This document shows, piece by piece, positions 274-20,006 of a stretch of DNA of 64,000 nucleotides (its first letter is position 1; each line of letters opens with the position of its first letter). The position numbers and the translations under genes are program-made. The notes beneath the pieces are model-generated. The model saw only the letters and a list, made by a program, of their open reading frames with translations, did not search any database and was not told the origin of the DNA. The DNA is from Arthrobacter sp. Leaf337 (GTDB lineage: Bacteria; Actinomycetota; Actinomycetes; Actinomycetales; Micrococcaceae), in the NCBI RefSeq assembly GCF_001423745.1, contig NZ_LMPC01000012.1, positions 493,107-557,106 of the forward strand, given 5' to 3'.

Positions 274-1341
274 ATGTCCCTCAGCGTTGAGGAAATGAAC
301 ACACAACTCCCGGTGGCGAACGCGCTGCCCGGCGAGGCTGTCCCCTATTACATGGCTTCCGGCGAGGGCGCCCGATACGAAATCAACGGGCAGCTTGTCA
401 CCGTCATCGCCCGTTCGGCGGACACCGGCGGCATCTTCAGTGCCGCCTACGTCTCGGGCGGGATGGGAGCCGAATCTCCCTTCGTCAGCCACAAGGTGGA
501 GCACAAGACCCTGTACGTCTTCGACGGCATCCTGCACGTCTGGCTGCCCGGCGAAAGCCGCATCCTCACGCCCGGCGACTCCGTAGTCATTCCTCCAGGA
601 ACCCCGCACGCCTACCGCATGGCCAGCCACTACACACGGTTCCTGAACTGGATGACCCCCGGCGGCGCCGAGGCCTACTACGAACGCGTCGGCACCCCCA
701 TCGATTCGCATGTTCCGCCGGTGCGCGCGGGCCACAAACGCAGCGCACAGGAGCAGGCGGAAGTGGGGGCCGAGTTCGGCATCACGTTCCCGGAGGTGCA
801 GCGCGTTGCACCTACCTTCCAGCAGGACGCCGGCCTTCCGCCCACCCAGAGCCCGTACTTCCTCAGCGCGGGCGAAGGCGAACGCCTGGTCAGCTACCAG
901 ACCATGTTCACTTACCTCTCAAGGCCGGCGAACACCGGCTCAAACTACTTCGCAGTGCACACCAAGGGAGCCAAATCGCCCTACATTCCGCTGCACTTCC
1001 ACGCGGAGCACACCGAGAACTTCCTGTGCACGGAGGGCCGGATGTGGCTCTACGCCAACGGCCGCGAGATGCTCCTGACCAAGGGCGACTTCGTGCACGC
1101 GCCGGCCGGAACCGTCCACTCCTTCGCGTTCGACTCCCACAACACCCAGATGGTGGGTTTCCTGACGCCGTCGGTCTTCAACGGCTTCTTTGAGTACTTC
1201 AACAAGCCCACCGAGGACTACATGTACACCGAAGGCGGCACTCCGTACATGGACATGGAAGGCTTCGGCCGCGCCCAGGCGGAAATGGACCTGACCGTCG
1301 TCGGTCCCCCGCCGCAGCGTCGGGCTGCCCTGGACATCTGA
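274..1341 (+). CDS. Bicupin quercetin 2,3-dioxygenase
   Basis: A 355-residue cytosolic protein with two cupin domains and no signal peptide. The second domain carries the full metal-binding set H241-x-H243-x4-E248 and H282, in the order and spacing known from quercetinases. The first has H73, E76/H77 and H112. Quercetinases open the C ring of flavonols with O2, release CO and leave a depside of protocatechuate and 2,4,6-trihydroxybenzoate. The ATG is preceded by GAAGGAA. The gene stands alone on the plus strand and ends in a strong hairpin. The neighbouring rhamnosidases, beta-glucosidase and aromatic enzymes support a flavonol substrate. A pirin-like or other cupin oxygenase is the alternative. 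Confidence 0.82.
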   Translation: MSLSVEEMNTQLPVANALPGEAVPYYMASGEGARYEINGQLVTVIARSADTGGIFSAAYVSGGMGAESPFVSHKVEHKTLYVFDGILHVWLPGESRILTPGDSVVIPPGTPHAYRMASHYTRFLNWMTPGGAEAYYERVGTPIDSHVPPVRAGHKRSAQEQAEVGAEFGITFPEVQRVAPTFQQDAGLPPTQSPYFLSAGEGERLVSYQTMFTYLSRPANTGSNYFAVHTKGAKSPYIPLHFHAEHTENFLCTEGRMWLYANGREMLLTKGDFVHAPAGTVHSFAFDSHNTQMVGFLTPSVFNGFFEYFNKPTEDYMYTEGGTPYMDMEGFGRAQAEMDLTVVGPPPQRRAALDI

Positions 1342-1411: not shown

Positions 1412-1473
1412 CATCGATTGCTCCGTAGGCGCCCTTTTCGCCCCGGAAAACGGCTGTTACGGAGCAATCGATG
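1412..1473. repeat. 16-bp perfect inverted repeat overlapping the end of the DUF3500 gene
   Basis: CATCGATTGCTCCGTA (1412-1427) is the exact reverse complement of 1458-1473, with a 30-base spacer. The right arm covers the last codons and part of the stop codon of the DUF3500 gene. Together with the hairpin at 1360-1395 it forms a double stem-loop between convergent genes. It may be a terminator for the leftward operon, though no clear T tract follows on that strand. Confidence 0.7.
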
Positions 1474-2701
1474 GGAATTGGCGCACCAGTTCGCGGCCAT
1501 AATCGTTGCCGTTGGGCGTGCGCAGGACCGTGTGCATGTGGAACGGCGCCGGCTCGTCGTTGCTGAGGAAGACCCCCGTGTGGTGGTCCAGCTCCATCAC
1601 CACCACCGGGCTCTGCAGCCGGAAGTAGAAGGCCTCCTGCCCCTCCCAGCCACCGATCCAGCTGAACCAGCTCTCGCCGTAGTGTTCCCGGATCTCCCTG
1701 CGCCGCGCAGCCCTGGGTCCGTCCGGCAGGTAGGCGATGAAATCCTCCACCACGTCATCCAGCACGGCTAGCGCCTCGGGCGGCATCGAGCCGACCGCAA
1801 TGCCCTCGTAGGGAATCACCCGGTTGTCCTGGAAGCAGCCGCCCAGATGGCGTTCGTCCCCGGGATGGATCCGACCCTCGGGCATGGCAGGATCCACCAT
1901 CGCGTCATACACCGTTGCTTCCTTTCGGAGCCTGTCCGGCAGGGCACCCATCAGTTTCCGGGCCAGCGCGATGCGTTCCTTGAAGACCTTGACGCCCCGG
2001 TGCGGGCCGGCGTCGATGACGTCGGGTTCCGCTCCGAGGAACACGGGCGAGATCACCAGCTGCGTGCCCGCGACCAAACAGTTGAGCGCCACGTGGTGGC
2101 CGAAGAGCTGCCAGCCCCAAGGTTCCGCATCGGACGGCTCACCGAACAGGGCGAAGTTGTAGCTGAACTCATTCATCAGCAGCGGAAGCCCCACCAGTTC
2201 ACCCAGGAATCCGTTGATCCGCATGAGGTTCCTGGCCAGTTCGAAACCGGCAGGGCTCAGGCTAGCCTCCACCACGGCCAGCGCGGCATCCCGGACCGGG
2301 GCGTCCAGTTCATCAAGGCGCAGTCCGGTGTCGTGCTGCATGAACTCGGGGTTCGCCCAGCTCTGCCACTCGTGGGCGTCCACGCCGTAGCTCAACCGTG
2401 AGACTTCATCGAGGGTTGCAACAGACAGCAGCTTCCGGCCGGCTGCCACCATCGCCGCCGTGGGCGCTTCTTCCCCGGCCCTGGCCGGGTCGAGCGGATA
2501 GAGCCCCGGGCGGAGGACGCCGTCGTTCGTTACCCCCTTGAAGGGTTCCGGGTAGAGCACCTCCCAGCCCTCGATCATGGGCCCCGCAAACGAATCGGTT
2601 TTGGCAGCCTCGGCGTAGTCACGGGCGCTGAGGCCGCGGATCCCGGCCACCCGCGGATGGTCCGGAGCGAACAGGAATTCACGGAATGACGGCGCTGACA
2701 C
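1457..2701 (-). CDS. DUF3500 protein, candidate phloroglucinol-branch enzyme
   Basis: A 414-residue cytosolic protein that I place in the DUF3500 family, for which I know no established function. The start is the GTG at 2701, preceded by AAAGGGA; it overlaps the end of the upstream hydroxylase gene by 23 bases, so translation is probably coupled. The protein has a histidine-rich pattern that could bind a metal: GWQLFGHH (H202, H203), ELDHHTGVF (D372, H373, H374) and FHMHTVLRTPNGNDYG (H388, H390). It is last in an operon with an FAH-family hydrolase, an FAD aromatic hydroxylase and an esterase. Inferred role: ring fission or C-C cleavage of a hydroxylated phloroglucinol, because no other candidate for that step is encoded nearby. 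The family call is firmer than the function. Confidence 0.7.
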   Translation of the reverse strand: MSAPSFREFLFAPDHPRVAGIRGLSARDYAEAAKTDSFAGPMIEGWEVLYPEPFKGVTNDGVLRPGLYPLDPARAGEEAPTAAMVAAGRKLLSVATLDEVSRLSYGVDAHEWQSWANPEFMQHDTGLRLDELDAPVRDAALAVVEASLSPAGFELARNLMRINGFLGELVGLPLLMNEFSYNFALFGEPSDAEPWGWQLFGHHVALNCLVAGTQLVISPVFLGAEPDVIDAGPHRGVKVFKERIALARKLMGALPDRLRKEATVYDAMVDPAMPEGRIHPGDERHLGGCFQDNRVIPYEGIAVGSMPPEALAVLDDVVEDFIAYLPDGPRAARRREIREHYGESWFSWIGGWEGQEAFYFRLQSPVVVMELDHHTGVFLSNDEPAPFHMHTVLRTPNGNDYGRELVRQFPSIAP

Positions 2702-4511
2702 GGGAGTCCCTTTCGGTGGGTTGCGATGAGATGTGCTGCGCCGGGCTGTTCTGCTCCGGCCTGTGCTCGAACGAATGCCGGGGCGCTGCGCTCCAGCCGG
2801 CGGCCACGGCAAGCGCTGCCGCGGCAGCCTCAGCGGACGCACCGCGCCAGGCAACGTGCTGGTCCGGACGGACCAGCACCGCGTCGGCTCCCCACAGGTC
2901 CGCCATCGGTGTCCCGTCGTCGGAAGGCCCGACGGCGGTGATGGTCACCGGGATGCCCTGCCAGGCCGCAGCATGGACGACCGGCGCAAAAACGTGAACC
3001 TCAGGCACACCGCCCAGGGCGGCGGCGTCGGCCAGGAGGGTGAAGCCGGTGCCAAGGAGGCTGTAAAGGGAGGTTGAGTCATCCAACCAGGCGTGCGGCA
3101 GCAGGGCCCCCGGGCTGGCCGAAGCGACGTACCGGATGGGGTCCTCAGCGGGAACCGGCGAACCGTCAGGCACCACCAGGGGCGAATCCGCGTAGGCGTA
3201 GCCGAGCACAAGTCCCAGCGAATCGAACTCGCTCTGTTTGACCGCGAGCGCCTCGTAAGCCGCCTGCCTGGCCCGGATGCCGTCGCCGCCGGCGCTGCGC
3301 AGGGCCGGATCAGCGAAATGGTAGGCGAGCGCCTCGCCGTTGGTGGCGGCGTCGCGGATGGTCCGCGCCGCCACCGGACGGCGTTCGAGCCCGTAACTGG
3401 CCAGGAGCTCCGGGCCGCCCCACCCTCCCAGGCTGGCCGCGATCTTCCACGCAAGGTTCGCAGCATCGCCGATGCACGTGTTGAAGCCGTGCCCGCCCCA
3501 CGGTGGATTCAGGTGCGCTGCGTCGCCCACCAGGAACACGCCGTCGCGGCCGTAGCCGGGGGCAAGAAGCATGCGGGCGGTCCAGGGATCGGTGGCCACC
3601 ACGTCGACGTCCACCTCTGTGGCCACCAGTTCGCGGACCATGGCGACGGCGGCGTCATCCGCCAGCGCGGCTGCAGCCTCTGCGTCCACGCCCTGCACGA
3701 TCGCCCACCACGTATCGGCCAGGTCCATCCGGCCCACCATTCCCGCGGTTTCCCCGCCCACCACCCAGTACTGGACGGCAGGTGGCAGCGCGATCATGGG
3801 GCCAAGGTCCTTCGAGCGGAACATGATGCTGATGTTGGACAGCTCCGCGGAACCGCCTTCCAGGCGGATGCCCAGGCTGCGGCGCACGGCGGAGGAACCG
3901 CCGTCGGCCCCGACCACAAAGTCGGCGGTGATGGTGCGGGTCCGTCCGGTATCGTCCGCCACCACGACGGCGGTTCCGGTACTGGCGGTTCCGGAAGGAA
4001 CCGGCCCTGAACTACCACTTCCGGAATTAACACTGACGTCCTGCACATGCCACCCGGTCAGCAAGGTAACCAACGGGGCCTCCGCCACGGCCGCGCGGAG
4101 GACCTCCTCCAAAACGGGCTGCGGAACCTGCTGGCCGCATTCAGGCTGCGGCCCGTAGCGGCCCGGCACCAGCTGGAACGCGTGCCGGAACGTCCGGATT
4201 TCATGGGCCGCGGGACCGGCCAGCCCGGTGCAGAAGGTGACGTCCTGGGCGTAGTCCACGGGAAGCGGTGCCGCGGCGCGGAGTGCGTCCGCCAGCCCCA
4301 GCCGGCGGAGGTGCGTCATGGTGCGGGCGTTGGTGGTCTTGGCCCGGGGGCGGGCCGGATCCACGGTGGTCCGCGGCTCGATCACCGTGCTCGGGATACC
4401 GCGGGATGCGAGGTCCAGCGAGAGGAAGAGTCCGCTGGGGCCGCCGCCGGAGATCAGGACCTGCACCTCCTCCGGCAGCGTGTCAGGAGAGGCGGTTGGC
4501 AGGGTGACCAT
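2679..4511 (-). CDS. FAD-dependent aromatic monooxygenase (PheA/TfdB family)
   Basis: A 610-residue class A flavoprotein hydroxylase. It has the N-terminal dinucleotide-binding motif GGGPSG near residue 22. The second FAD motif, GVFLVGDAAHLNPPWGGHG, lies around residues 320-340, and a C-terminal thioredoxin-like domain is typical of phenol-type hydroxylases. Such enzymes use NAD(P)H and O2 to hydroxylate phenols. The ATG overlaps the stop of the upstream FAH-family gene as TGATG, and the 3' end overlaps the DUF3500 gene. In this locus a likely substrate is phloroglucinol or its carboxylate, formed from the A ring of quercetin. That substrate is inferred from context and not visible in the sequence. 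Confidence 0.85.
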   Translation of the reverse strand: MVTLPTASPDTLPEEVQVLISGGGPSGLFLSLDLASRGIPSTVIEPRTTVDPARPRAKTTNARTMTHLRRLGLADALRAAAPLPVDYAQDVTFCTGLAGPAAHEIRTFRHAFQLVPGRYGPQPECGQQVPQPVLEEVLRAAVAEAPLVTLLTGWHVQDVSVNSGSGSSGPVPSGTASTGTAVVVADDTGRTRTITADFVVGADGGSSAVRRSLGIRLEGGSAELSNISIMFRSKDLGPMIALPPAVQYWVVGGETAGMVGRMDLADTWWAIVQGVDAEAAAALADDAAVAMVRELVATEVDVDVVATDPWTARMLLAPGYGRDGVFLVGDAAHLNPPWGGHGFNTCIGDAANLAWKIAASLGGWGGPELLASYGLERRPVAARTIRDAATNGEALAYHFADPALRSAGGDGIRARQAAYEALAVKQSEFDSLGLVLGYAYADSPLVVPDGSPVPAEDPIRYVASASPGALLPHAWLDDSTSLYSLLGTGFTLLADAAALGGVPEVHVFAPVVHAAAWQGIPVTITAVGPSDDGTPMADLWGADAVLVRPDQHVAWRGASAEAAAAALAVAAGWSAAPRHSFEHRPEQNSPAQHISSQPTERDSRVSAVIP

Positions 4512-5398
4512 CAGGCACGGCCACGGAGTGAGATGTCGCCGACGGGAGTGGTGAGCGTGCCGAGGCGGTCGATTTCCACTTCAACGGTGTCGCCCGGCTG
4601 CAGCAGCCACTGCGGTGTGCGGGCGTACCCCACACCCTCCGGGGTTCCGGTGGCGATCACATCGCCGGGATGGAGGGTGAGGGTCTGGCTGATCAGCGAG
4701 ATGATGGCCGGCACGGAGAAGATCATGTCCCGCGTGTTGCCGTTCTGGACCTCGGTGCCGTTCACCCGCGTGCGGACCTGGAGACCGTCACGGAGGTCGC
4801 CCACCTCGTCCCGGCTGACCAGCGGACCCAGCGGTCCGGTGAAGTCGCCGTTCTTGCCCAGGGTCCACTGCGTGGTGAGCTTCTGCGCCCGGCGGGCCGT
4901 GAGGTCGTTGAACGTGGAGTAGCCGAAGACCGCCTCGGCCGCTTCGGCCTCGTCCATGGATTCCACACGCCGGCCGACGTACGCCGCCACTTCGCCTTCC
5001 CAGTCCAGTCCCGCTTCGCCGGAGGGTACGGGCACGGGCACGTTCCCTACTGACAGCGAGGCCGTCCAGCGGCCGAACAGCGTGGGGTACGGAGGCAGTT
5101 CCTGGTCCTTGTAGCTGCCTTCCGCTGCGTGGGCCTTGTAGTTGAGGCCCACACAGATAACGCGGGCCGATGCGGGCACCAGCGGCACTTCGGTAACGCT
5201 GACGCGCTCAAGCCAGCCGCCGTCGTCGGCTGCTGAAGCACCGGATGCTGAGGCGCCAGCAATCAGGGAGACAGACTTGTCTTGCCAGCCGGCGGCGTCC
5301 GCCCAGAACTCGCCTACGGGCGCCAGCGGGAAAACGCGGGAGTCCACCAGGGCCGCTGCCCAGGATTCCCCGCGGTGGTTGATGCCGATGTACTGCAT
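4511..5398 (-). CDS. Fumarylacetoacetate hydrolase-family enzyme
   Basis: A 295-residue protein of the FAH superfamily, which includes acylpyruvate hydrolases, decarboxylases and hydratases of aromatic catabolism. The fold signatures visible are LDWEGEVAAYVGR, with the metal-binding acidic residues, GYSTFNDLTARRAQ and the C-terminal VIATGTPEGVGY. The start is the ATG at 5398, with AAAGG seven bases upstream; the open frame extends further but without family similarity. Its stop overlaps the start of the FAD hydroxylase gene by one base. It probably hydrolyses the acyclic product of ring opening or acts on a related keto acid. The exact substrate cannot be read from sequence. Confidence 0.85.
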   Translation of the reverse strand: MQYIGINHRGESWAAALVDSRVFPLAPVGEFWADAAGWQDKSVSLIAGASASGASAADDGGWLERVSVTEVPLVPASARVICVGLNYKAHAAEGSYKDQELPPYPTLFGRWTASLSVGNVPVPVPSGEAGLDWEGEVAAYVGRRVESMDEAEAAEAVFGYSTFNDLTARRAQKLTTQWTLGKNGDFTGPLGPLVSRDEVGDLRDGLQVRTRVNGTEVQNGNTRDMIFSVPAIISLISQTLTLHPGDVIATGTPEGVGYARTPQWLLQPGDTVEVEIDRLGTLTTPVGDISLRGRA

Positions 5399-5471: not shown

Positions 5472-6353
5472 TCAGGTGACCTGGGCTTGCCTGCGGAAGA
5501 AATCGATGGTGGCGTCCAGGACCTTCTGCGCCGCTGCCGGGCTTTTGTCCGGCAGCAACCACATGTGGTCGGCGCCTTCAATGAGGAGAAGTTCGACGTC
5601 GGCGCCAGCGGCTTCCAGCGCGGCGGCGAACGTGGCGGCCTGGGCTGGCGGGACGAACCGGTCGGCGGTGCCATGGGCCAGGAAGAACGGTGGTGCTTGG
5701 CTGCCCACGTAACTCAGCGGGCTCGCAGCAGCCGCCATGTCCGGGGCATCCGCGGGCTGCACTCCGAGGAGGAGCGCTTCGCGGGAACCGGGGTCGTCCG
5801 CCGTTGCCACGGCATCCGGCAGGGCCTGGCTGCCCATCCGGACAAGGTCGGTGGGCGGGTACCAGGCGGCGACGCCGGCGACAGGTTTCACACCGGACGC
5901 CGGGGCCCCCGCACCGGCGCCGGAACCGTCTGCCCCGAGGCCCACAAGACAGGCCAGATGACCGCCGGCGGAATCCCCCCAGGCAAAAATCCTGCCCGGG
6001 TCCACGTTGAACTCAGCCGAGTGGTTCCCGAGCCAGGCGACGGCGGCTGTGGCATCCTCGAGCTGTGCCGGAAACACGGCCTGCGAGGACAGGCGATAGT
6101 CCGCCGACACCACGGCAAACCCTGCCGCGGCCAGACGCTCGAAGGGTGTCAGCGCAAAGGCGTCGGTCACCGGGCCGAGGGAGGAACGCTCCCCCATGCG
6201 CCAGCCGCCGCCGTGAAAATGTACGACGGCCGGCACCGGACCCCCGGAGCCGGCCCGGGAGGTTCCTGCCGCCGGCAGGTAGAGGTCCAGCAGCAACGGC
6301 AATCCGCCGGGACGTGAAAACTCGATCCCCCTCAGGACTTGTCCAGCAGTCAT
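5472..6353 (-). CDS. Alpha/beta hydrolase, HSL-type esterase (first of three)
   Basis: A 293-residue hormone-sensitive-lipase-type hydrolase. The oxyanion-hole motif HGGGW lies near residue 47, the nucleophile elbow GDSAGGH has Ser128, and Asp231 (TADRF) and His263 (ADHMW) complete the triad. The ATG at 6353 is chosen because GGAG lies six bases upstream; a second ATG at 6365 is possible. It is first in the leftward operon with the FAH-family, hydroxylase and DUF3500 genes and follows an operator-like palindrome at 6449. It is a candidate depside hydrolase splitting the quercetinase product. Assignment to one substrate is a guess, since two similar enzymes are nearby. Confidence 0.82.
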   Translation of the reverse strand: MTAGQVLRGIEFSRPGGLPLLLDLYLPAAGTSRAGSGGPVPAVVHFHGGGWRMGERSSLGPVTDAFALTPFERLAAAGFAVVSADYRLSSQAVFPAQLEDATAAVAWLGNHSAEFNVDPGRIFAWGDSAGGHLACLVGLGADGSGAGAGAPASGVKPVAGVAAWYPPTDLVRMGSQALPDAVATADDPGSREALLLGVQPADAPDMAAAASPLSYVGSQAPPFFLAHGTADRFVPPAQAATFAAALEAAGADVELLLIEGADHMWLLPDKSPAAAQKVLDATIDFFRRQAQVT

Positions 6354-6448
6354 CAATGACTCCATCCGTTGCCGTGGCCGGAATCAGGAACGATCCGGCG
6401 CCTTCTTCCCTAAGCCTGCTGGACGGAAGCCCCGGCGGAAACGGGAAA

Positions 6449-6463
6449 TTCCAATCATTGAAA
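6449..6463. promoter_or_regulatory. Candidate IclR operator before the esterase-hydroxylase operon
   Basis: TTCCAATCATTGAAA has the form TTCCA-N5-TGAAA, one base away from the locus consensus. It lies at the stop codon of the upstream esterase gene, about 95 bases before the next start. It therefore suggests an internal promoter for the four genes 5472-6353 to 1457-2701. Confidence 0.5.
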
Positions 6464-7447
6464 TGGCTTCGCCGACGCCACTTCATCGGCCAGGAACTGC
6501 AGGCCGCGCTGCACGATGCGCAGCCCCGCCGAGTGGTTGAGGTAGCCGTGGGTGGCGCCCGGTTCCACGCGCGCCTCCACGGCGATCCCGGCGGCCCGGA
6601 GACCATCAACGAACAACTCGCCGGAGTAGCGCAGGTCATCGTATTCGCACACCAGAACGGCTGCAGGCGGCAGGCCGGCCGGGTCCGCGTAGCCGGGCAT
6701 TGCGTAGGAGGACGCCATCAGGATCGGACCTCCGATATAGTTCTCCACCATGGCGCGGCAATCGTCCGCCGTGAAGCGGAGGATCCGCGGAAGACCGGCC
6801 ATGGCCGCGGCCCCCGGATCCCCTGGCTCCGGCAGCTCCGCATGCAGGAAGGGGTAGGCAAGCACCAGCTTCGCGGGCAGCCGGCCTCCCGCATCCTTCA
6901 GAAACAGGGCAGCCCCGACGGCAAGGTTGCCGCCGGCGCTGGCTCCGCCCAGGCAGAGGGTCCGGGGGTCAGCCCCCAGCTCCGCGGCGTGTTCCACGGC
7001 CCACAGCCAGGCTGCAAGGACATCCTCGTGCGGCACCGGAAAATGCACACCGTCGCGGGCCAGCCGGTAGTCCACGGACAGCACCATCCCGCCGCTCCTG
7101 GCGGCCACTTCCCGTGCCAGCTGGTCCGCCTCCCGCATGTCCAGGCCGCCTCCGGCGAACCCGCCACCGTGAACCCATACGAGGGCCGGAAGTCCACCGC
7201 CTGCAGCGGCTGGCAAGTCTGCTGAAGAGTCCGACGCCGGCCCGCCGTAGATGCGCACCGGCACCGGGCCGTTGGGGCCCGGCACGTCCACGGTCCGGAC
7301 CGCGACGGCAGGCGCCGCATACGGGGCCTCGCCCGCGCTGAAGGCCTCCAGCCGTTCCATGCCGGAGGGATCGGCAAGGAGCTCGGCGAAGGAACCGGCG
7401 CCGGCCACGTGGTGCATGAGGGCAGCCAGTTCCGGATCCACGCTCAT
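6455..7447 (-). CDS. Alpha/beta hydrolase, HSL-type esterase (second of three)
   Basis: A 330-residue HSL-family esterase without signal peptide. Its motifs are HGGGF (93-97), GGASAGGN with Ser170, Asp270 in CEYDDLR and His300 in GATHGY. The ATG overlaps the stop of the GH78 gene as ATGA, so both are made from one messenger. The large N-terminal helical cap is typical of the group acting on acyl or aryl esters. In this context it may remove acyl groups from flavonoid glycosides or hydrolyse the depside. It is not a close copy of its two neighbours. Confidence 0.82.
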   Translation of the reverse strand: MSVDPELAALMHHVAGAGSFAELLADPSGMERLEAFSAGEAPYAAPAVAVRTVDVPGPNGPVPVRIYGGPASDSSADLPAAAGGGLPALVWVHGGGFAGGGLDMREADQLAREVAARSGGMVLSVDYRLARDGVHFPVPHEDVLAAWLWAVEHAAELGADPRTLCLGGASAGGNLAVGAALFLKDAGGRLPAKLVLAYPFLHAELPEPGDPGAAAMAGLPRILRFTADDCRAMVENYIGGPILMASSYAMPGYADPAGLPPAAVLVCEYDDLRYSGELFVDGLRAAGIAVEARVEPGATHGYLNHSAGLRIVQRGLQFLADEVASAKPFQ

Positions 7448-10071
7448 GGCCGTGCCGCGAGTTCAGGAGCCCTGAGGGCTTCGTCAGCCGGCGTCGCCAC
7501 ACAGCTGAACGAATGCGTTCCGGATCCAACTTCATGGGTGGTCTCGTCAGCATCCGGCAGCACCACCGTTGCGGTGCAAGCCGCCGGCACCGTCACCTCC
7601 AGGGTGAAGTCCGTGCCCGCCAGGTTCCAGCTGACCTCGGCCACACCGTACGGGGTCTCGTGCCTGGCCCGTGCCCAGGCCAGCCGGCCGCCGGGCCGGG
7701 GCCGGACCAGCAGTTTCCGGTAGCCCGGTTCAGCCGGAGCCAGCCCCGCCAGGCTGCGGTGCATCCAATCGGCCACCGCACCCAGGGCGTAGTGGTTGAA
7801 GGAGGTCATTTCACCGTCATTGATGCTCCCGTCCGGAAGCATGGAGTCCCACCGCTCCCAGATCGTGGTGGCACCCATCGTCACGGGGTAGAGCCAGGAC
7901 GGGCATTCCGTCTGGAGCAGGAGTCGGTACGCCGCCGTCGAGTAGCCGTGGTCGGTCAGTGCGTCGCAGACCAGCGGTGTCCCCACGAAACCCGTGGCGA
8001 TCCGGTAGCCGTCGGCTTCCACTGCCTGAGCCAGCCCGTCGGCCGCGGCAGCCCGCTCCCGGCCCTCCAGCAGTCCGAAGCTCAGTGCGACGGCGTAGGC
8101 CGTCTGGGTCGGCGGCATCAGCAGCCCGCCGCGGGAAATATAACGCTCTCGGAATACTTCGGCAGCCCGCTGCGAGAGCTCGTCCAGAGCGGCCGGGTCC
8201 TCCCCCAGCAGCACCGCGGCCTGGCAGGCCACGCGGGCCGAGTACGACAGGTAGGCCTGGGCCACCAGCTGCCACGGCGTCCGGGCAGCGCCCGGTTCGT
8301 TCGGGGGCGCCGCCGGATCCAGCCAGTCACCGAACTGGAAGCCCTGTTCGAACCGCAGCTCCGGTCCGGCGGCCCCGGCAGCAGCCTCCAGCCATGCGAT
8401 CATTCCCGGCAGTTGCCGTCGCAGGAACTCCAGGTCGCCGGTGCGCTGGTAGAGCACCCAGGGAACCAGCACGGCCGCGTCACCCCACGCGGCCATCACC
8501 GGGCGGACAGGAAACGGCGGCTTGTCGAACGTTACTTCGGGGACAACCAGCGGCGGAGGTCCGTCGGTACCTTGCTCGGCGGCCAGGTCCTTCAGCCAGG
8601 ACGCTGTGAAGCCTGGGATCCGGTAGAGGAAGGACGCCGTTGCTGCGAAAATCTGGAAGTCGCCCGTCCAGCCGAGCCGCTCGTTGCGCTGCGGGCAGTC
8701 CGTTGGCACATCAACGAAGTTTCCGCGCATGCCCCACACCACGTTGGAATGGAGCTGGTTCAGCATGGGGTCGGAACATTCGAAGGAACCGGTCCGCGCC
8801 AGGTCTGAGTGAACGACGACGGCGGTGAACGCGTCCGGGTCCAGGTCACCGGGCCAGCCGGTCACCTCCACATATCGGAAGCCGTGGATGGTGAACTCAG
8901 GTTCCCAGATTTCCTCGCGGCCGCCACGCAGGATGTACCGGTCGGTCTGCTTGGCGACCCGCAGTGGCCTGGTGCCGAGTTCTCCGTATTCCAGGACCTC
9001 GGCGTGGCGCAGGACCACCTCCGTGCCGGCCTCTCCGCTAACCCTGATGCGGAGGTGTCCCACCAGGTTCTGGCCGAAGTCCAAAATGGTCTTCCCGGAC
9101 GGCGTGCCCAGCACTGCGGTCACGGGAAGCTCGTCCGTCGCGCGCACCGGCGGACCGTCCGGGGCCACCAGCACCGACGCATCGAAGTCCTCCACGGCTA
9201 CAGGGCCGAGCACGGCGTCCTGGGAGTCTGCCCAGCCGCAGTCCTCCAGTCGGGCGTCATACGTTTCGCCGTTGTAGAGATCGGCGCCGAGCACCGGGCT
9301 CCTGCCAGCCAGCCAGGAGCTGTCGGTTCCGATGACAGTGATCCTGCCGCCGGCGTCGGCGATTTCCAGTTGGGTGATCGCCGACGTGCGGTCACCGTAG
9401 GTGTTGCGCTTGTCCTGGAAGCCCAGGTTGCCGCGCCACCAGCCGTCGGCAAGTTCGAGCCCGATGACATTGGTGCCGGGCTGCAGGTAGTCGGTGACGT
9501 CGTGGGTCTGGTAGCGGAGGCGGTGGTGGTAGCTGGTCCAGCCCGGCGCCAGCCGCTCGCGGCCGACGCGCCGGCCGTTGATCCAGGCCACGTAAACACC
9601 GCGGGCGCTGGCGTAGAGGCGTGCGGAGGCCACGGTGCCCGTGACTTCGAACGTGCGGCTCAGCCGGGAGGCGGGTTCGGTGTCTTCGCTCGTTTCGTCC
9701 CAGGACGGCCGGATCATGGCCGCCTGCCAGTCTGCCGGGTTCAGGAGCCCGGCTTCGACATTGGCCACTGGGCCCCACTCGGAGGGACCGCCGTCGTCGC
9801 TGCCCCACACACGGACCCGGGCGGCAACACGCTGGCGGCTCCGCAGCGGCGGTGCCGGCCACGGCTGGAGGAGCTGCTCGGCGGATTCGGTTCGACCGTA
9901 GCTGACCAGGTGCTCTTCATCAGGGCCGAGCTCGAGTTCGTAGGCGGACTGGACCCAGCCCGGTGTTTCGGAGGTGACCTGCCAGGAGAGCCGCGGCCGC
10001 TCCTCGCCGATACCAAAGGGCTCCTCATGGTGTTCAAAGCGGAGGGCTGAGGGGCTGGATGGTTGAGTCAA
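7444..10071 (-). CDS. GH78 alpha-L-rhamnosidase (first of two)
   Basis: An 875-residue alpha-L-rhamnosidase with the usual multidomain layout: N-terminal beta-sandwich domains, an (alpha/alpha)6 catalytic barrel and a C-terminal beta-domain. The diagnostic segment DCPQRNERLGWTGD, with catalytic acidic residues, is near residues 458-472. The start is a TTG at 10071, with no better in-frame ATG upstream of the conserved region; the Shine-Dalgarno sequence is weak. No signal peptide is visible, so it acts inside the cell on imported rhamnosides. An operator-like palindrome lies 81 bases upstream. It would remove the terminal rhamnose of rutin-like glycosides. Confidence 0.9.
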   Translation of the reverse strand: MTQPSSPSALRFEHHEEPFGIGEERPRLSWQVTSETPGWVQSAYELELGPDEEHLVSYGRTESAEQLLQPWPAPPLRSRQRVAARVRVWGSDDGGPSEWGPVANVEAGLLNPADWQAAMIRPSWDETSEDTEPASRLSRTFEVTGTVASARLYASARGVYVAWINGRRVGRERLAPGWTSYHHRLRYQTHDVTDYLQPGTNVIGLELADGWWRGNLGFQDKRNTYGDRTSAITQLEIADAGGRITVIGTDSSWLAGRSPVLGADLYNGETYDARLEDCGWADSQDAVLGPVAVEDFDASVLVAPDGPPVRATDELPVTAVLGTPSGKTILDFGQNLVGHLRIRVSGEAGTEVVLRHAEVLEYGELGTRPLRVAKQTDRYILRGGREEIWEPEFTIHGFRYVEVTGWPGDLDPDAFTAVVVHSDLARTGSFECSDPMLNQLHSNVVWGMRGNFVDVPTDCPQRNERLGWTGDFQIFAATASFLYRIPGFTASWLKDLAAEQGTDGPPPLVVPEVTFDKPPFPVRPVMAAWGDAAVLVPWVLYQRTGDLEFLRRQLPGMIAWLEAAAGAAGPELRFEQGFQFGDWLDPAAPPNEPGAARTPWQLVAQAYLSYSARVACQAAVLLGEDPAALDELSQRAAEVFRERYISRGGLLMPPTQTAYAVALSFGLLEGRERAAAADGLAQAVEADGYRIATGFVGTPLVCDALTDHGYSTAAYRLLLQTECPSWLYPVTMGATTIWERWDSMLPDGSINDGEMTSFNHYALGAVADWMHRSLAGLAPAEPGYRKLLVRPRPGGRLAWARARHETPYGVAEVSWNLAGTDFTLEVTVPAACTATVVLPDADETTHEVGSGTHSFSCVATPADEALRAPELAARP

Positions 10072-10173: not shown

Positions 10174-10533
10174 TCAGCTCAGGCAGAGGCAGAACGGGTG
10201 GCCGGCCGGGTCCAGGAAGACACGGAAGGTGGTGCCGGGCTGCGTCTCCGCCTTGGTGGCGCCCAACCTGATGGCCTCTTTTTCGCCGCCGTCCAGATCC
10301 GCCACCACCAGGTCCATGTGCATCTGCTGCGGGTGGGTCTGGCCCGGCCACTCGGGCGCCTGGTAGCCCTCCACCTGCTGGAACGCAATGCAGTTGCTGC
10401 CGTCGTCGGGCCGGATCTCGACCCAGCCGTCATCGACCCTTTCGTTCCAGCCGAGCAGGGCACCGTAAAAGCCCGCAAGGGCTCTCGGATCGGGGCAGTC
10501 GATAACAAAGCTTGGGAAGCGTGCGATAGCCAT
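10174..10533 (-). CDS. VOC-family (glyoxalase/bleomycin-resistance-like) protein
   Basis: A 119-residue single-module VOC protein. It starts with the family pattern FVIDCPDPRALAGFYGALLGW, followed by MHMDLVVADLDG and ending with FLDPAGHPFCLCLS. VOC modules usually form dimers with a shared metal or ligand site and include lyases, dioxygenases and binding proteins. It lies between two catabolic operons on the same strand, 52 bases after the third esterase gene, and may be read through from it. At this size it is not a standard two-domain extradiol dioxygenase. A function in the pathway is possible but unsupported. Confidence 0.75.
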   Translation of the reverse strand: MAIARFPSFVIDCPDPRALAGFYGALLGWNERVDDGWVEIRPDDGSNCIAFQQVEGYQAPEWPGQTHPQQMHMDLVVADLDGGEKEAIRLGATKAETQPGTTFRVFLDPAGHPFCLCLS

Positions 10534-10585: not shown

Positions 10586-11545
10586 CTAAAGCTCGCTGGC
10601 GAAAAATTCAACTGCGGTGTTGAGGATTCCGTCCAACTGGCCCTCGGCACCGAAGAAGCAGTGGTCGGCGCCCTCGATGGTGACGAGTTCGTTGCGGACG
10701 CCGGCGGCCGTCAGCGCCGCGGCCAGCAGCTCGCTTTGGGAAAGCGGGACCAGGCCGTCGCTGTCGCCGTGGATGAGCAGGAACGGTGCCGCGCCGGCGG
10801 TGACGTGGCCCAGCGGGCTGGCCGCCGCCAGAAGGTCCGGATCGGCGGTGCCGCCCACCAGCATCGGCCCCGGCTCCATGGTCATCCCCGGCGGTACGGC
10901 GGCCACGAGGGCGCCGGACACGAGACCGGCAGGTATATCCATCGGCGGCATGTCCGGCAGCGAGGACACGCCGTAGAAGTCCACGACGGCACTGACCGCG
11001 CTGGAGTGACCCGACACTCCGAGCCCGCCTTCCAGGTCCTCCCGCGTCCCCGTGACACCGAGCAGGGCGGCGAGGTGCCCGCCCGCGGACTCGCCCCAGG
11101 CGCCGATGCGGCCCGGGTCGATGCCCAAGACAGCGGCGTGCTCCCGGAGGTACCGGACGGCGGCCTTGAGGTCATGCAGCTGCGCCGGGAAGGGCGCTTC
11201 CAGGGCATGCCGGTAGTCAACTGTGGCGCAGGCGATGCCGGCCTCGTTCAGCAACCGGAAGACCGAGTCCTTGGGAAAGGTGGGCGGCAGCTCGCGGCGG
11301 TCACCAAGCTGGAAGGCTCCGCCGTGGATCCACACCACCACGGGAACAGGTCCTGCGGTTTCGCGCAGCAGCCAGATGTCCATGGCCAGGCGACGGAAGC
11401 CGACGGCAATGGCGTAGCTCACTTCGCGGTGCACGGTGGACACCTCCGACGCCGGCTCAGGAGTTCCCGGCGCGTGGAAGGCCGGGAAGGGAGGCGGCGC
11501 AGGCATCCGTCGTGGGGTTTCAGTGGTGGCGGTTTGGGGGGTCAT
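10586..11545 (-). CDS. Alpha/beta hydrolase, HSL-type esterase (third of three)
   Basis: A 319-residue HSL-type hydrolase with HGGAF (74-78), GESAGGH (Ser153), Asp263 in HGDSDGLVP and His295 in GADHCFF. The ATG overlaps the stop of the second rhamnosidase gene by four bases. It is the last closely coupled gene of the ABC transporter operon. This coupling to uptake and deglycosylation suggests it works on the imported glycoside, for example removing an acyl group, but the true ester substrate is unknown. Confidence 0.82.
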   Translation of the reverse strand: MTPQTATTETPRRMPAPPPFPAFHAPGTPEPASEVSTVHREVSYAIAVGFRRLAMDIWLLRETAGPVPVVVWIHGGAFQLGDRRELPPTFPKDSVFRLLNEAGIACATVDYRHALEAPFPAQLHDLKAAVRYLREHAAVLGIDPGRIGAWGESAGGHLAALLGVTGTREDLEGGLGVSGHSSAVSAVVDFYGVSSLPDMPPMDIPAGLVSGALVAAVPPGMTMEPGPMLVGGTADPDLLAAASPLGHVTAGAAPFLLIHGDSDGLVPLSQSELLAAALTAAGVRNELVTIEGADHCFFGAEGQLDGILNTAVEFFASEL

Positions 11546-14271
11546 TGTGCGCTCCTTGCGAGGTCCGGGTGGGCGTCAGTGCCGCTTGCGGAATCGACGG
11601 CGGGCATTGCGGCGGCAAAGGTATGGGTTCCAGGTCCGACGACGGCGGCCGGTTGTCCGGGCAGGCGGACCTCCGCCGTGGTCCCGGAGGGGACGGTGGA
11701 CGTGAGCGTCAGCACGCCGTCGTCCATGATCCACTCCACTTCGATGAGGCCCTGCGGGCCCCGGTGCGAGGTGTTGGCGGACGTCAGCCCGGCGCCCGGC
11801 CGGGGCTCGATGATGATCCGTTCCCAGCCCGCACTCCCCGGCGCTTGGCGCAGCCCGGCGGTGTAGCGGTGCAGGAACGAGACCACGGCGCCCTTGCTGT
11901 AGTGGTTGAGCGAGCCCGTGGCGCTGCCGTCGGTCCCGATGCCGTTCCAGTCCTCCCACATGGTGGTGGCGCCGCGGTCCACCATCACCAGCCAGGAGGG
12001 CTCCGAGTCCTGCATCAGCAGCTCATAGGCGAGGCCGGGGTGGCCGTTGTCGGCAAGCACCGGTAGCAGGCACGGCGTGGCCAGGAAGCCGGTGCCCAGG
12101 TGGGTGCCCGCCGCCCTGACCAGGCCCGCGAGCTGATCCGCGACGGCGGGGCGGGCAGCGTCCGGCACGAGATCGAAAGCGAGCGCCCGCACGCAATTGG
12201 CCTGGGTGCCGCCGTCGCCTTTTCTATCGGATACTCTTCCGTCAGGCTGCAGGTATTCCTGCTGCCACGCGTCGCGGACCTTCTCGGAGAGGTCCCGGAG
12301 TTCGCGGGCTTCGTCGTCCCGGCCCAGGACGGCGGCAATCCTGGCCATGAGGGCGGACGAGTGCCGGTAGTAGGCGGTGGCCACGATGCCGTTGTCCATG
12401 GACCGGGAAGCGAAAAGGTCCGGCGCCGGGCCGCCCGGTTCCATCCATTCGCCGAAGTGGAAGCCGGTGTCCCAGAGGTAGCGCTCATGCTCCGCGGGGG
12501 TGGGGCGAAGGGCCGACCTGGCCGGGTGCCGATTCCCCTCTGCGGTGCGGCGGATGAAGCCCAGCCACCGGTTCATCGCGTCCCAGTTCTCTTCGAGGAT
12601 GCCGGTGTCTCCGGTGGCGAGGTAAAGCTCCCAGGGCACCATGACGATCGCGTCTCCCCACCCTGCGGACTCGTTGGTGAAGGACATGAATTCGGCGCCG
12701 GTTACGTCAGGTCCGGGCGACGGCGAGATGTTGGCGATCACGCCGTTGTCCCACTGGTCGGCACGGACATCCCTCAGCCATTTGCGGGAGAAACCCGCCA
12801 CGTCGTAGAGGTAGGCGGCGGTGGGCACAAAGAGCTGCCAGTCGCCGGTCCAGCCGGCCTTTTCGCGCTGCGGGCAGTCGGTGGGGACCTCGCAGGCGTT
12901 GCCGCGGAAGCTCCAGTCCACGATCTCGTGCAGCTTGTTCAGGCGGCTGTCGCTGCAGCTGAAGGTGCCCAGGCGTTCCAGGTCGGTATGCACCATGCAT
13001 CCCACGATGTCTCCCGGCTGCAGCGCTTCGGCCAGGCCGCGGACGGAGACGTACCGGAAGCCGTGAGCGGTGTGCCGCGGTTCGAAGACCTCGCCGGGGG
13101 TACCCGAGGCCACCACGGTATCCACTTGCCCGGCATCCAGGAACTGGCCGGGTCTTTTGAAGTCGATGGGGCGGAGGTGGTCCTGGCTGACCTCGCCGTC
13201 GGCCTCGAGGGTTTCGCCGTGGACCAATGTCACCTCGGTGCCCGGGGCGCCCAGCCGGCTGAGCCGTACCCAGCCGTTGATGTTCTGCCCCAGGTCCACG
13301 ATCTGATTGCCGCCGCCCAGTCGCGTGATGGAGACCGGAACGAGCTCCTCCACGACGCGGGTGGGCGGCGCCACCGGGCCGGTCAGAGTGCTGAAGCTGC
13401 CTTCCCGCAGGACGGCGGGCCGGGCGGCCTCACCCTGAACAGTCGCTGTCCGGAGGTCCACGCGCTGGCCTTCCATCAGGTCCGCAGAGAGGATCTCCGT
13501 CGCAGAAACAAGCCACGACCCGTCAGTGCCGATGACAGTCCGTCCTCCCCCGGACTCAATCTCCAACTGCGCCAGGAAAGCAGTCTGCGTTCCGTACAAG
13601 TCGGCGTCGCGCGTGAACCCGAAGGACCCGCGGAACCAGCCGTCCGTCAGGACCGACCGCACGATGTTAGTACCGGGGCGCAGCAGGTGCGCAATGTCGA
13701 ACGTCTGGACCTGCAGGGTGGTGTGGTAGCTCGTGGAGCCGGGGGTCAGCTGCTGGTCCCCCACCCGGTGGCCGTTGAGGAAGAGCTCATAGATGCCGTG
13801 CGCGGTGGCGTAGGCCCGCGCAAAGTCGGGTGCGGCGTCCAGGGTGAAGTCGCGGTGCAGGGCATACCCGGGGCGGCGGCCCGGTGCCGGAATCTCGGAT
13901 TCATCGGGTCCGATCCACCGGGCGCTCCAGTCCGAGGCGTTCACCAGGCCCAGCTCCACGGCCACCGGTTCGGACCAGCCGGACAGCACCTCGGTGCCGT
14001 CCGCGGCCGCGTTCCAGCTCCGGACCCTCCAGTCGAAGCGGTCGCGGGAACCAAGGTCAGGCCCGCCGTAGGGCACGAAGCTGTGCAGGGTGGAGTCCAC
14101 ACGCCCGGTGTCCCAGCCGTTGCCCGTGCTGAGCTGGTAGGCCGTCTGCCGGACCGTGCCGTGCGGCGGCGTCCAGCTGAACCGCGGGGCGGTGTTGGTG
14201 ATGCCGAAGGCCTGGCTCAGATTTTCGGTCCGGAGGCGGGCGGGCTGAGCGGATGCGTGATGTTTAGGCAA
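11542..14271 (-). CDS. GH78 alpha-L-rhamnosidase (second of two)
   Basis: A 909-residue GH78 enzyme with the same architecture as the one at 7444-10071 but divergent in sequence. Its catalytic segment reads DCPQREKAGWTGDWQLF near residue 464. The start is a TTG at 14271, preceded at short distance by GAAAGGGG. A longer frame reaching 14388 would run into the upstream ATPase gene and lacks family similarity. No signal peptide is present. It is encoded inside the ABC importer operon, 11 bases after the ATPase gene, which ties its substrate to what the transporter brings in. Two rhamnosidases may handle different linkages. Confidence 0.9.
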   Translation of the reverse strand: MPKHHASAQPARLRTENLSQAFGITNTAPRFSWTPPHGTVRQTAYQLSTGNGWDTGRVDSTLHSFVPYGGPDLGSRDRFDWRVRSWNAAADGTEVLSGWSEPVAVELGLVNASDWSARWIGPDESEIPAPGRRPGYALHRDFTLDAAPDFARAYATAHGIYELFLNGHRVGDQQLTPGSTSYHTTLQVQTFDIAHLLRPGTNIVRSVLTDGWFRGSFGFTRDADLYGTQTAFLAQLEIESGGGRTVIGTDGSWLVSATEILSADLMEGQRVDLRTATVQGEAARPAVLREGSFSTLTGPVAPPTRVVEELVPVSITRLGGGNQIVDLGQNINGWVRLSRLGAPGTEVTLVHGETLEADGEVSQDHLRPIDFKRPGQFLDAGQVDTVVASGTPGEVFEPRHTAHGFRYVSVRGLAEALQPGDIVGCMVHTDLERLGTFSCSDSRLNKLHEIVDWSFRGNACEVPTDCPQREKAGWTGDWQLFVPTAAYLYDVAGFSRKWLRDVRADQWDNGVIANISPSPGPDVTGAEFMSFTNESAGWGDAIVMVPWELYLATGDTGILEENWDAMNRWLGFIRRTAEGNRHPARSALRPTPAEHERYLWDTGFHFGEWMEPGGPAPDLFASRSMDNGIVATAYYRHSSALMARIAAVLGRDDEARELRDLSEKVRDAWQQEYLQPDGRVSDRKGDGGTQANCVRALAFDLVPDAARPAVADQLAGLVRAAGTHLGTGFLATPCLLPVLADNGHPGLAYELLMQDSEPSWLVMVDRGATTMWEDWNGIGTDGSATGSLNHYSKGAVVSFLHRYTAGLRQAPGSAGWERIIIEPRPGAGLTSANTSHRGPQGLIEVEWIMDDGVLTLTSTVPSGTTAEVRLPGQPAAVVGPGTHTFAAAMPAVDSASGTDAHPDLARSAQ

Positions 14272-14282
14272 CGGTGCCCCTT

Positions 14283-15290
14283 TCAGGCGTAATGGCAGGC
14301 GACGTCGGATGCACCGACGCGGCGGAGCGCGGGCCGTTCGGAGGTGCACAGCTCCGTTGCCAGCGGGCAGCGTTGGCTGAAGGGACATCCGCCCGGCGAC
14401 GCCGACACCGCGGCGGCAGTGCGAACCCCAAGGGCCTCGCGGACAGCCCGCCGGTGGGCCTGTTCGGCAGGTCTCGGCACGGGGGAAGCAGCCACTAGGG
14501 CCTGCGTAAACGGGTGCTTGGGAGCCTCCGTCACGGCAGCCGCAGGGCCGCTCTCCATCACCTGGCCGCGGTAGAGGACCACCACCCGCTGGGCGAGGAA
14601 CTGGACCACCGAAATGTCGTGGGCGATGAACAGGTAGCTCAGGCCGAGTTCGTCCCGGAGGTCTGCCAGCAGGTTGAGCACCTGGGCCTGGGTGGAAAGG
14701 TCCAGGGCGCTGACCGCTTCGTCGCAGACCACCAGCCGGGGGTCGCAGATCAGGGCCCGCGCCACCGCGATGCGCTGGCGCTGGCCGCCGGAGAACTGGC
14801 TGGGATAGCGGTCCACTGCTTCGCGGGGCAGCCCCACGCGTTCCAGCATGGCCTCGGCCTTTTCCCGGGCTTCAGCCGCGGTGACTCCGCGGAGGCGGAG
14901 CGGCTCCGCCAGCGAAGCCCCGATGGTCTGGCGCGGATTCAGCGAGGAATTGGGGTCCTGGAAGACCGCCCGCAGTTCTCCGCCCAGGGCGCGGCGCTCT
15001 GCAGCTCCCGCGCGCGTGACGTCCTTGCCCTGGAAGGTGATGGTGCCGCCGGCACTCTTCTGAAGGCCGAGAATGGCCTTGCCGATGGTGGACTTTCCGG
15101 AACCGGACTCCCCTACCAGGCCCACGGTCTCGCCGGGGAGGATGCTGAAACTCACCCCGTCCACTGCTGCCGGCAGGGCCGCAGCTTTCCGCCCGCGACC
15201 GTAGCGGACCACCAGCTCCTTGACTTCCAGCATGGGCTGCTCCGGCGCAACTGCCGCCGTGTCCTGCCGTTCCACCGTCTTGATGCTCAT
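14283..15290 (-). CDS. Peptide-type ABC transporter ATP-binding protein (DppF-like)
   Basis: A 335-residue ATPase with Walker A GESGSGKST, signature FSGGQRQR and Walker B LVVCDEAVSALD. The C-terminal Cys-containing extension (CPFSQRCPLATELC) is characteristic of the second ATPase of oligopeptide/dipeptide importers. The start overlaps the stop of the fused permease-ATPase gene by four bases. It completes the importer together with that fusion, the permease and the binding protein. The cargo is probably a glycoside, judging by the adjoining rhamnosidase gene. Confidence 0.92.
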   Translation of the reverse strand: MSIKTVERQDTAAVAPEQPMLEVKELVVRYGRGRKAAALPAAVDGVSFSILPGETVGLVGESGSGKSTIGKAILGLQKSAGGTITFQGKDVTRAGAAERRALGGELRAVFQDPNSSLNPRQTIGASLAEPLRLRGVTAAEAREKAEAMLERVGLPREAVDRYPSQFSGGQRQRIAVARALICDPRLVVCDEAVSALDLSTQAQVLNLLADLRDELGLSYLFIAHDISVVQFLAQRVVVLYRGQVMESGPAAAVTEAPKHPFTQALVAASPVPRPAEQAHRRAVREALGVRTAAAVSASPGGCPFSQRCPLATELCTSERPALRRVGASDVACHYA

Positions 15291-17314
15291 GCCAGGTCCC
15301 TTTCAACGATTTTCAGTACTCGGTGGGTGGGCACTTCGGTGGCAAGCCATTCCAGGCCTTCCACGGCCAGTTCGTCGGCCTTGACGCAGCGGACCAGCCC
15401 CTCCTCGGAGCCGGAGGCCAGCAGCGGCACCGGGGCGGCGCACGCCGATCCGGCGAACTGGCAGCGGGCCGCAAAGCGGCAGCCGGTGGGCCAGTCCTTG
15501 GGCTGGGGGACCTGGCCGCTGATGGTGGCCAGCCGGTCAGGCATGTCAGCAGCGGAGTTGGCGTGCGGATCCGCGGCAAGGAGGGCCAGCGTGTAGGGGT
15601 GCCGGGGGTTGTCCAGGATGTTGGCGGTCCGGCCGCTTTCCACCACCTGGCCGGCGTACATGACGGCGACGTTGTCGCAGATGTCCGCCACGACGCCGAG
15701 GTCATGCGTCACCATCACCACCGACATGCCGGTGTCCTTCACCAGCGAGCGGAGCAGGGAAAGGATTTCCGCCTGGACCGTGACATCCAGCGCGGTGGTG
15801 GGCTCATCGGCCACCAGCAGCCGGGGCCGTCCAGAGAGGGCCAGTGCGATGGCCACGCGCTGGGCCATGCCGCCGCTGATCTGGTGCGGGTAGGTCTTGA
15901 GGATGCGTTCAGCGTCCACGATGCCCACCTTTTCCAGCAGGGTGCGGGCTTCCTTCCGGGCGTCCGCCTTGCCCATTTTCCGGAGGCGCCGGATGGCGGA
16001 GGTGAGCTGGTAACCCACGGTGAACATGGGGTCCAGGGCCCGCATGGGTTCCTGCGAGATCAGTGCGATGTCACGGCCGCGGATGGCTTCCATCTCCCGG
16101 TCGGTGGCGGCAGCCAGGTTCTTGCCGTTCCAGAGGATCTGGCCGCCCGTTGCGGCCACCCCGGAGGGCAGCAGGCCGAGCAGCGACAGCGCGGTCATGG
16201 TCTTGCCGCACCCGGATTCCCCCACGAGCCCCAGGACGGTTCCCTGTTCGACGTCGAACGAGACGTCCGTGACCAGGCGAGGACCGCCGTCGACCCCTAC
16301 TGAAAGTCCGCGGACGCTGAGCTGTCCGTTCGCGGGTGCGGCGTCAGAGTCGGCAACCGGATTAGCGGAGGGAGTAGTGGCGGCGCCAACGGCGGCTACG
16401 GCACGAGCCCGCTGGCGGCGGGCTGCCGCCGACGGCAGGTGGGAGGCAGTGGTGTTGGGCGCCTTGCCCAGGGCGTTGCCGATGGCGTTGGCGGCCAGGA
16501 CCGTCAGGGCCAGCACGGCGCCGGTGGGGACCATCAGCCACGGGGCATCGTAGACGTGCTGCGAGGCGCCCTGGATCATGCCGCCCCAGCTGGGCTGCGG
16601 AATGGGCGGGCCGAAACCGATGAACGCCAGGCCCGCCTGGATGAGCATGCCGACGGCGAAAATGAGGGCGGACTGCACCACGATGGTGTTCGTCAGGCCG
16701 GGCAGGACGTGCCGGAGGCTGATGCCCAGCGTGCTGACGCCGTCAACCTTGGCGGCGTCCACGTAGAGCTGGGACTGCAGGGACTTCGCCTGGCCGAGGA
16801 TCACGCGGTAGATTCCGGCGGAGATGAGGATACCCAGGATCGCCATGATCAGCGGAATATTGGTCCCCGCCGCGCCGATGACGGCCAGGATGATCACCGT
16901 GCCGGGCAGGGACATCATGATTTCGGTGACGCGGCTGATGACCGCTTCGACGCGTTCGCCAGCGGCGGCCGCCAGCATGGCTAGGACCGTTCCAAGCCCG
17001 ACGCCGACAATCACCGTGATCAGTGAGGTTCCCAGGGTGCCTGCGGCGGCAGCGAAAATGCGGCTGAGGAGGTCCCGGCCGAGTTCGTCGGTACCGAGCC
17101 AGTGGGCCGCGGTGGGGCCGGACAGGACTGCGGTGAAGTCTTGGTCTTCCGTTTTGTACGGCAGCCACCACTGGGCAGTCAGCGATGCGGCCACCAGGGC
17201 CGCCAGCCAGATAACGCCCGCCACGCCGCCCGGAGAAGCGAAGAGGCGGTGGGCGGAAAACCGGGCCAGGGCGTTCTTGCGCTGGTGCGGGGCGGGGGCG
17301 ACGGAGGGGATCAT
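15287..17314 (-). CDS. Fused ABC permease and ATP-binding protein (DppC-DppD-like)
   Basis: A 675-residue fusion. The first ~290 residues are a DppC-type permease, with [16 protein letters not shown] and about six membrane segments. A linker follows, then a DppD-type ATPase with GESGCGKT, the signature ISGGMAQR, Walker [15 protein letters not shown] and the Cys-rich tail. The start is the ATG at 17314, which overlaps the upstream permease stop by four bases; the longer open frame upstream is a shadow of that gene. Such fusions occur in actinobacterial peptide-type transporters. It keeps membrane and ATPase subunits in fixed stoichiometry. Confidence 0.9.
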
Positions 17315-18252: not shown

Positions 18253-18273
18253 GGTGACCTCCATCGGTCAGGA

Positions 18274-18316: not shown

Positions 18317-18340
18317 GCCGGTAATCGGCAGGTTCGGGTG

Positions 18341-19894: not shown

Positions 19895-20006
19895 GTAGTG
19901 CGCCTTTGCATTCTGATGTGACAACGGAGGAAGCAGTTATGGGGGCCAGGCAGGTGGCCGGCTCCCCTCAAGCATCAGCGCGCGCTGTTTGATGGAGACA
20001 CGAGGA

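Follow-up and report, generated by a model that had tools for sequence, protein, structure and literature searches.

To our knowledge, the genes by which aerobic bacteria open the phloroglucinol-type ring of flavonoids are not settled. For fungi, an Aspergillus nidulans cluster attributed to Martins et al. 2024 reportedly comprises genes for a monooxygenase, an FAH-like protein, a DUF3500 protein and a short protein, with 2,4,6-trihydroxybenzoate said to be named there as a related substrate, and the short conserved protein of the fungal pathway is said to act on 5-hydroxydienelactone. In the accessible part of a 2025 review, the A. nidulans DUF3500 protein AN10530 is proposed, as a putative dioxygenase, to convert 1,2,3,5-tetrahydroxybenzene to 5-hydroxydienelactone; the ring-opening idea has therefore already been put forward for fungi. 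A Cupriavidus paper describes growth on phloroglucinol and, in its accessible portion, does not name the ring-opening gene, an R. palustris paper mentions tetrahydroxybenzene, in the portion available, in its reference list only, and the available part of a Rhodococcus qingshengii genome paper gives nearby locus tags to a hydroxylase, an MFS transporter, a DUF3500 protein and an FCD regulator. No test of the function of a bacterial DUF3500 protein was found in the partly accessible literature searched, subscription journals and bioRxiv lying outside the search, and prior publication is possible. An initial annotation of the locus described here stated that no function is established for the family, which holds for tests of bacterial members in that literature but not for the family as a whole, since a fungal function has been proposed and a distant member is titled a dehydratase.

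The locus lies in a window of 64,000 nucleotides from Arthrobacter sp. Leaf337, whose genome measures 5.2 Mb. At the end of a minus-strand operon, a DUF3500 gene (1457..2701) begins with GTG and encodes 414 amino acids with no internal stop. Residues 78-403 of the protein match positions 2-297 of the 297-position PF12006 (DUF3500) profile with 327.3 bits against a gathering cut-off of 27.2 (E 1.4e-97), and DUF3500 is the sole Pfam family found at E <= 0.001, the intradiol family PF00775 giving no match. The closest relatives found, with 92% and 91% identity, are both from Arthrobacter. In the genus, 35 of the 101 genomes sampled carry DUF3500 matches, a few of these being broken, and a sample of 296 genomes from the phylum contains 21 with a match; the trait described below, if real, would thus be fairly common in these bacteria. 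In some genomes of the genus (G305, G326 and G352) the match is in pieces or carries internal stops, which suggests decay or sequence errors. An inverted repeat identified by eye at 1413-1472 (ATCGATTGCTCCGTA at 1413-1427 and TACGGAGCAATCGAT at 1458-1472) lies between the DUF3500 gene and a convergent cupin gene and overlaps the DUF3500 stop codon; it is perhaps a terminator common to both genes.

The DUF3500 gene overlaps by 23 nt the gene of an FAD-dependent aromatic hydroxylase with FAD_binding_3 and Rng_hyd_C domains (2679..4511), whose nearest solved chains are RebC, 2,4-dichlorophenol 6-monooxygenase and 2-hydroxybiphenyl 3-monooxygenase. The ATG of the hydroxylase in turn has one base, 4511, in common with the end of the gene of an FAH-family hydrolase (4511..5398; motifs GLNYKAHAAE, DWEGE, NDLTAR and TGTPEG). 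The coupling of these three genes claimed by the initial annotation is thereby borne out, and the length of the DUF3500/hydroxylase overlap, corrected for matches that start at residue 3 or 5, is equal in 37 of 37 Arthrobacter-group loci. Further minus-strand genes, assigned like the others by Pfam, encode a BD-FAE type esterase proposed as a depside esterase or lactonase (5472..6365), an alpha/beta hydrolase of the Abhydrolase_3 family (6455..7447), a first alpha-L-rhamnosidase (7444..10071), a Glyoxalase_6 domain protein (10174..10533), another BD-FAE type esterase (10586..11545), a second alpha-L-rhamnosidase (11542..14388), and an oligopeptide/dipeptide-type ABC transporter with an SBP_bac_5 binding protein (14283..19924) that possibly serves glycoside uptake. 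Adjoining the transporter genes is an ORF of 606 aa (19975-21795, minus strand) with no Pfam match at E 0.001. On the plus strand, convergent with the operon, lies the bicupin gene (274..1341), whose Pfam assignment is joined by phmmer matches to the quercetin 2,3-dioxygenase YxaG of Bacillus subtilis (E 4e-65 over residues 15-318 and 7e-65 over 16-318), a likeness drawn by sequence comparison alone. From the family names of the rhamnosidases, esterases, FAH hydrolase and quercetinase-like cupin, the cluster reads as one for rutin or quercetin catabolism. Except for this cupin, no Pfam family of ring-fission dioxygenases was matched among the window ORFs scanned (274-21795). The earlier view that a ring-fission oxygenase is otherwise absent stands for Pfam families in these ORFs, the cupin apart; elsewhere the genome has four matches to the intradiol family PF00775.

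What accompanies DUF3500 in related genomes was surveyed by blastp of the window proteins against ORFs of at least 90 aa in 80 loci, the best 80 of 114 confirmed relatives; these represent the near branch of the family only, and several end at contig ends. In 78 of the 80 actinobacterial loci, DUF3500 has an FAH gene at most 3 kb away; the two exceptions are L009, which is at a contig end, and L071. The chance expectation, calculated from 13 FAH-family matches in 5.2 Mb, is roughly 2%, a figure to be read with the relatedness of the 80 loci in mind, as they are not independent trials. The DUF3500-linked FAH proteins of 42 non-Arthrobacter loci are 51-69% identical to that of the window, and the other 11 FAH matches in the window's own genome reach at most 42%, so that the FAH beside DUF3500 is apparently a dedicated orthologue. 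Its closest known matches are L-2,4-diketo-3-deoxyrhamnonate hydrolase (E 3e-41) and the acylpyruvase FAHD1 (E 3e-25), both of which act on 2,4-dioxo acids; the window FAH is classed as neither, because its best NCBIfam score is 161.8 bits against an equivalog cut-off of 500.

The cupin is a less regular companion, and the survey thereby bears on whether it, rather than DUF3500, opens the flavonoid A-ring. Cupins include ring-cleaving dioxygenases, and some distant DUF3500 genes adjoin HupE/UreJ or NicO metal permease genes, as might be expected if the bicupin were the A-ring oxygenase and DUF3500 an accessory protein such as a metal donor. We consider this arrangement very improbable. The cupin matches quercetinase across most of its length, and a cupin relative is found in 52 of the 80 loci (within 3 kb in 43), leaving 28 in which the stretch covered holds DUF3500 with no cupin and in which, with one exception, FAH is still present. 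In 25 non-Arthrobacter loci without a cupin, no ring-cleavage dioxygenase occurs among the 25 most frequent Pfam families near DUF3500, a check that covered 82 neighbours within three genes, that leaves out 44 rarer families and neighbours labelled FAH, FCD, CoA-transferase, carboxyltransferase, SnoaL, MFS or IclR, and in which a rare dioxygenase could hide. A ring-opening role for DUF3500 itself, between the hydroxylase and the FAH hydrolase, is on the other hand well supported by context.

A relative of the window hydroxylase is present somewhere in the locus in 66 of the 80, and outside the Arthrobacter group the nearest match reaches at least 45% identity in 20 of 43 loci, a count that rises to 22 when every match in the locus is considered; FAH is thus the constant partner of DUF3500 and the hydroxylase is not. 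The 14 loci with no blastp match to the hydroxylase in the stretch covered (one of which, L041, ends inside an FAD_binding_3 gene), together with several more in which the only relative is 26-34% identical, would suit a DUF3500-FAH pair that opens the ring of some other polyphenol, for instance a gallate-derived, hydroxyquinol-like or methylated compound, with flavonoid genes as one of several suppliers. Proteobacterial relatives point the same way, L102 having a Rieske gene and L101 an HpaD gene with a flavin monooxygenase. Yet 36 of the 37 loci in the group to which the window belongs have both a cupin and a hydroxylase gene, and a PhlG-like gene (DAPG_hydrolase, PF18089), which we take as a pointer to phloroglucinol compounds, lies about 1.3 kb from DUF3500 in three of the 80 loci (L046, L048 and L080). 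Such genes were present in 4 of 24 genomes searched and in 0 of 14 controls; L048 has two copies encoding an identical protein. Another polyphenol as the true substrate is accordingly improbable, and would alter the generality of the reading more than the role of DUF3500 in the window. The initial annotation had named DUF3500 as the ring-opening enzyme for phloroglucinol. The role gains from the FAH gene in 78 of 80 loci and from the fungal proposal, as far as the review could be consulted, but 1,2,3,5-tetrahydroxybenzene is a likelier substrate than phloroglucinol as such.

The histidines to which a metal site had been attributed are where they were placed, at 202/203, 373/374 and 388/390, and all six are invariant in an alignment of 47 near sequences (the window protein with 46 of its 80 near relatives, whose identities are 55-92%). 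The conservation claimed for them holds across the family only in part. In a wider alignment of 77 sequences (47 near, 9 intermediate and 21 distant; L094, with no phmmer match, was left out), H202, H203, E370, H388 and H390 are kept in 77, 77, 76, 76 and 76 sequences, respectively, the lone exception at the last three positions being the partial sequence L111_4206. By contrast, the nine intermediate sequences keep H374 in seven cases and H373 in four, and the 21 distant ones keep H374 in none and H373 in one; H285 and D282 are each found in six of the nine and in none of the 21. The distant sequences are split from the rest with a FastTree support of 1.0 (21 versus 56 tips), and the genetic setting divides in a similar manner. 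Six of the seven intermediate members with H374 have FAH in the stretch read, at 2.7 kb in L103 and 4.3 kb in L115, and the seventh, L104, does not; nor do the two intermediate members that lack H374. Association with aromatic genes, which the initial annotation would have had surveyed across the family, is thus a property of the near branch but not of the distant one, where, within the stretch read, FAH was found in one of 14 loci with context (L121, 4.6 kb away). Distant loci have neighbours of their own: a hypothetical gene of about 180 aa downstream of DUF3500 in L106, L108 and L109 (with no Pfam match in L106 and L108), a HupE/UreJ permease gene in L108 and L111, and a NicO-like permease gene in L119. 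Such a setting suggests a metal-related role for the distant branch.

Taken together, these gene orders, orthologies, patterns of conservation and co-occurrences are what was observed, and from them we infer the chemistry, that is, all the reactions, the metal and the involvement of O2. The DUF3500 protein probably opens the ring in a pathway for the flavonoid A-ring in which 1,2,3,5-tetrahydroxybenzene and O2 would give 2,4-dioxoadipate. In this pathway, the rhamnosidases would trim a flavonoid glycoside, the bicupin would open quercetin, and the esterase would split the resulting depside to protocatechuate and 2,4,6-trihydroxybenzoate. The flavin hydroxylase would then form 1,2,3,5-tetrahydroxybenzene, starting either from phloroglucinol or, with release of CO2, from trihydroxybenzoate. 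At a putative metal held by H202/H203, E370 and H388/H390, DUF3500 would use O2 to cleave this ring between two adjacent hydroxyls, yielding 2,4-dioxoadipate, of which 5-hydroxydienelactone would be the enol-lactone. Some FAH-family hydrolases split 2,4-dioxo acids, and the FAH hydrolase of the operon may likewise convert 2,4-dioxoadipate to pyruvate and malonate. Finally, malonate would be taken to acetyl-CoA by a CoA-transferase of family III together with an AccD/AccA-like decarboxylase, the genes of which adjoin DUF3500 in some relatives and lie at another place in the window's own genome. The atoms balance as C6H6O4 + O2 = C6H6O6, and because C6H6O6 minus H2O is C6H4O5, oxidative cleavage also balances with the fungal product.

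Whether O2 takes part is the least secure element of this scheme, and the doubt stems chiefly from the title of the sole solved relative. An AlphaFold2 model of the DUF3500 protein built from the 47 near-branch sequences (mean pLDDT 85.4, pTM 0.89) has one clear fold match, PDB 9x86 (Foldseek E 1.1e-17; Z 21.0, rmsd 3.3, 255 residues), which is Amc20/ApmL, titled a dehydratase of amipurimycin biosynthesis. The two proteins are alike in core fold and in aligned GHH, E and HxH residues, and since 9x86 keeps these residues in the alignment, the motif is no proof of an oxygenase. DUF3500 might instead open or reshape the ring with no need of O2, being a metal-dependent hydrolase, hydratase or dehydratase whose substrate would be tetrahydroxybenzene or phloroglucinol in its keto form, with FAH splitting the diketo acid that results. 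A hydrolytic route of this kind could likewise give malonate, so that the malonate genes described below do not discriminate against it. The solved relative is, however, just 23-27% identical, its 297-residue chain aligns from window residue 80 or later with no match to residues 1-79, its setting is biosynthetic, and its dehydration activity is stated in the PDB title; no literature on ApmL or Amc20 was found, and the cispentacin and nucleoside papers, in their accessible parts, name neither ApmL nor a DUF. Moreover, the fungal product 5-hydroxydienelactone, as given in the part of the review available, is more oxidised than the hydrolysis product of tetrahydroxybenzene. A reaction independent of O2 is for these reasons unlikely, though it is the foremost competitor of oxidative cleavage. 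No cupin or VOC ring-cleavage dioxygenase was among the five chains with Z >= 2 when 997 solved chains, a set that may lack families, were aligned with the model. Held more tentatively than the pathway itself, and at somewhat less than an even chance, is the broader proposal that the catabolic DUF3500 branch constitutes a structurally new class of ring-fission dioxygenases, unrelated to the intradiol, LigB, VOC and cupin types, whose GHH...E...HxH metal site sits on a scaffold that a dehydratase shares, and that it is the core of a full bacterial pathway leading from rutin by way of tetrahydroxybenzene and 2,4-dioxoadipate to pyruvate and malonyl-CoA, a pathway of which no description was found in the literature searched.

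The fate of malonate offers a further line of evidence. A family III CoA-transferase match occurs in 15 of the 80 loci, an AccD/AccA-like carboxyltransferase match in 15, and both in 13; within the 13, the carboxyltransferase match falls on an ORF of at least 490 aa in 11, on a 105-aa ORF in L058 and on three pieces in L062. In L071 a carboxyltransferase match falls on a short ORF and comes without a CoA-transferase. In L032, L038 and L044, all of which also have hydroxylase and cupin, the two genes directly follow DUF3500, abutting or overlapping. Two of the carboxyltransferases, scanned with NCBIfam, come close to AccD/AccA and show a weak likeness to malonate decarboxylase subunits, with every score below its cut-off. 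The window's own cluster does not contain the pair, and 67 of the 80 loci do not have the two genes together. Elsewhere in the same genome, however, a probable malonate-use operon (L126, C29:203500-222500, at 4679-9737) encodes an FCD/GntR regulator, a MatC_N carrier (PF07158, E 6e-59) and, after it, a family III CoA-transferase and a fused AccD/AccA-like protein 56% identical to the carboxyltransferase of L032. If the CoA-transferase/carboxyltransferase pair handles malonate, as its company suggests, the DUF3500/FAH route would yield malonate. The MCD family of malonyl-CoA decarboxylases had no match in the genome and none in any control either, and is uninformative. A second locus of the genome with FAH and CoA-transferase genes (L112) was considered as a parallel pathway and set aside; Iso_dh, an HpcH/HpaI aldolase and a thiolase are present there, and DUF3500 is not.

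The fungal tetrahydroxybenzene pathway, as far as the accessible sources describe it, is the closest parallel, with the DUF3500 protein AN10530 as the proposed ring-cleaving enzyme. No counterpart of the fungal short protein was identified in the window, and no lactone-opening enzyme. In 10 of the 80 loci (L055, L073, L081 and seven others, none of them among the 37 of the Arthrobacter group), a SnoaL-like match does lie no more than 300 bp from DUF3500; in seven of the ten it falls on a clear short ORF of 128-143 aa, and this protein could be the bacterial counterpart. The remaining fungal set, a DUF3500 protein, an FAH-family protein and a flavin monooxygenase, is clustered in the window as adjacent, overlapping genes. 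If correct, the reading provides a testable bacterial pathway with named genes and a function for a bacterial branch of an uncharacterised family, and it would be a case of an oxygenase and a dehydratase built on a single fold. Compared with the fungal pathway, the window is bacterial and combines these genes with rhamnosidases and a quercetinase-like gene, and some of its relatives carry a probable malonate module. What the locus adds to the fungal proposal is thus a bacterial flavonoid setting, a dedicated FAH orthologue, a probable malonate module and the division of the DUF3500 family into branches.
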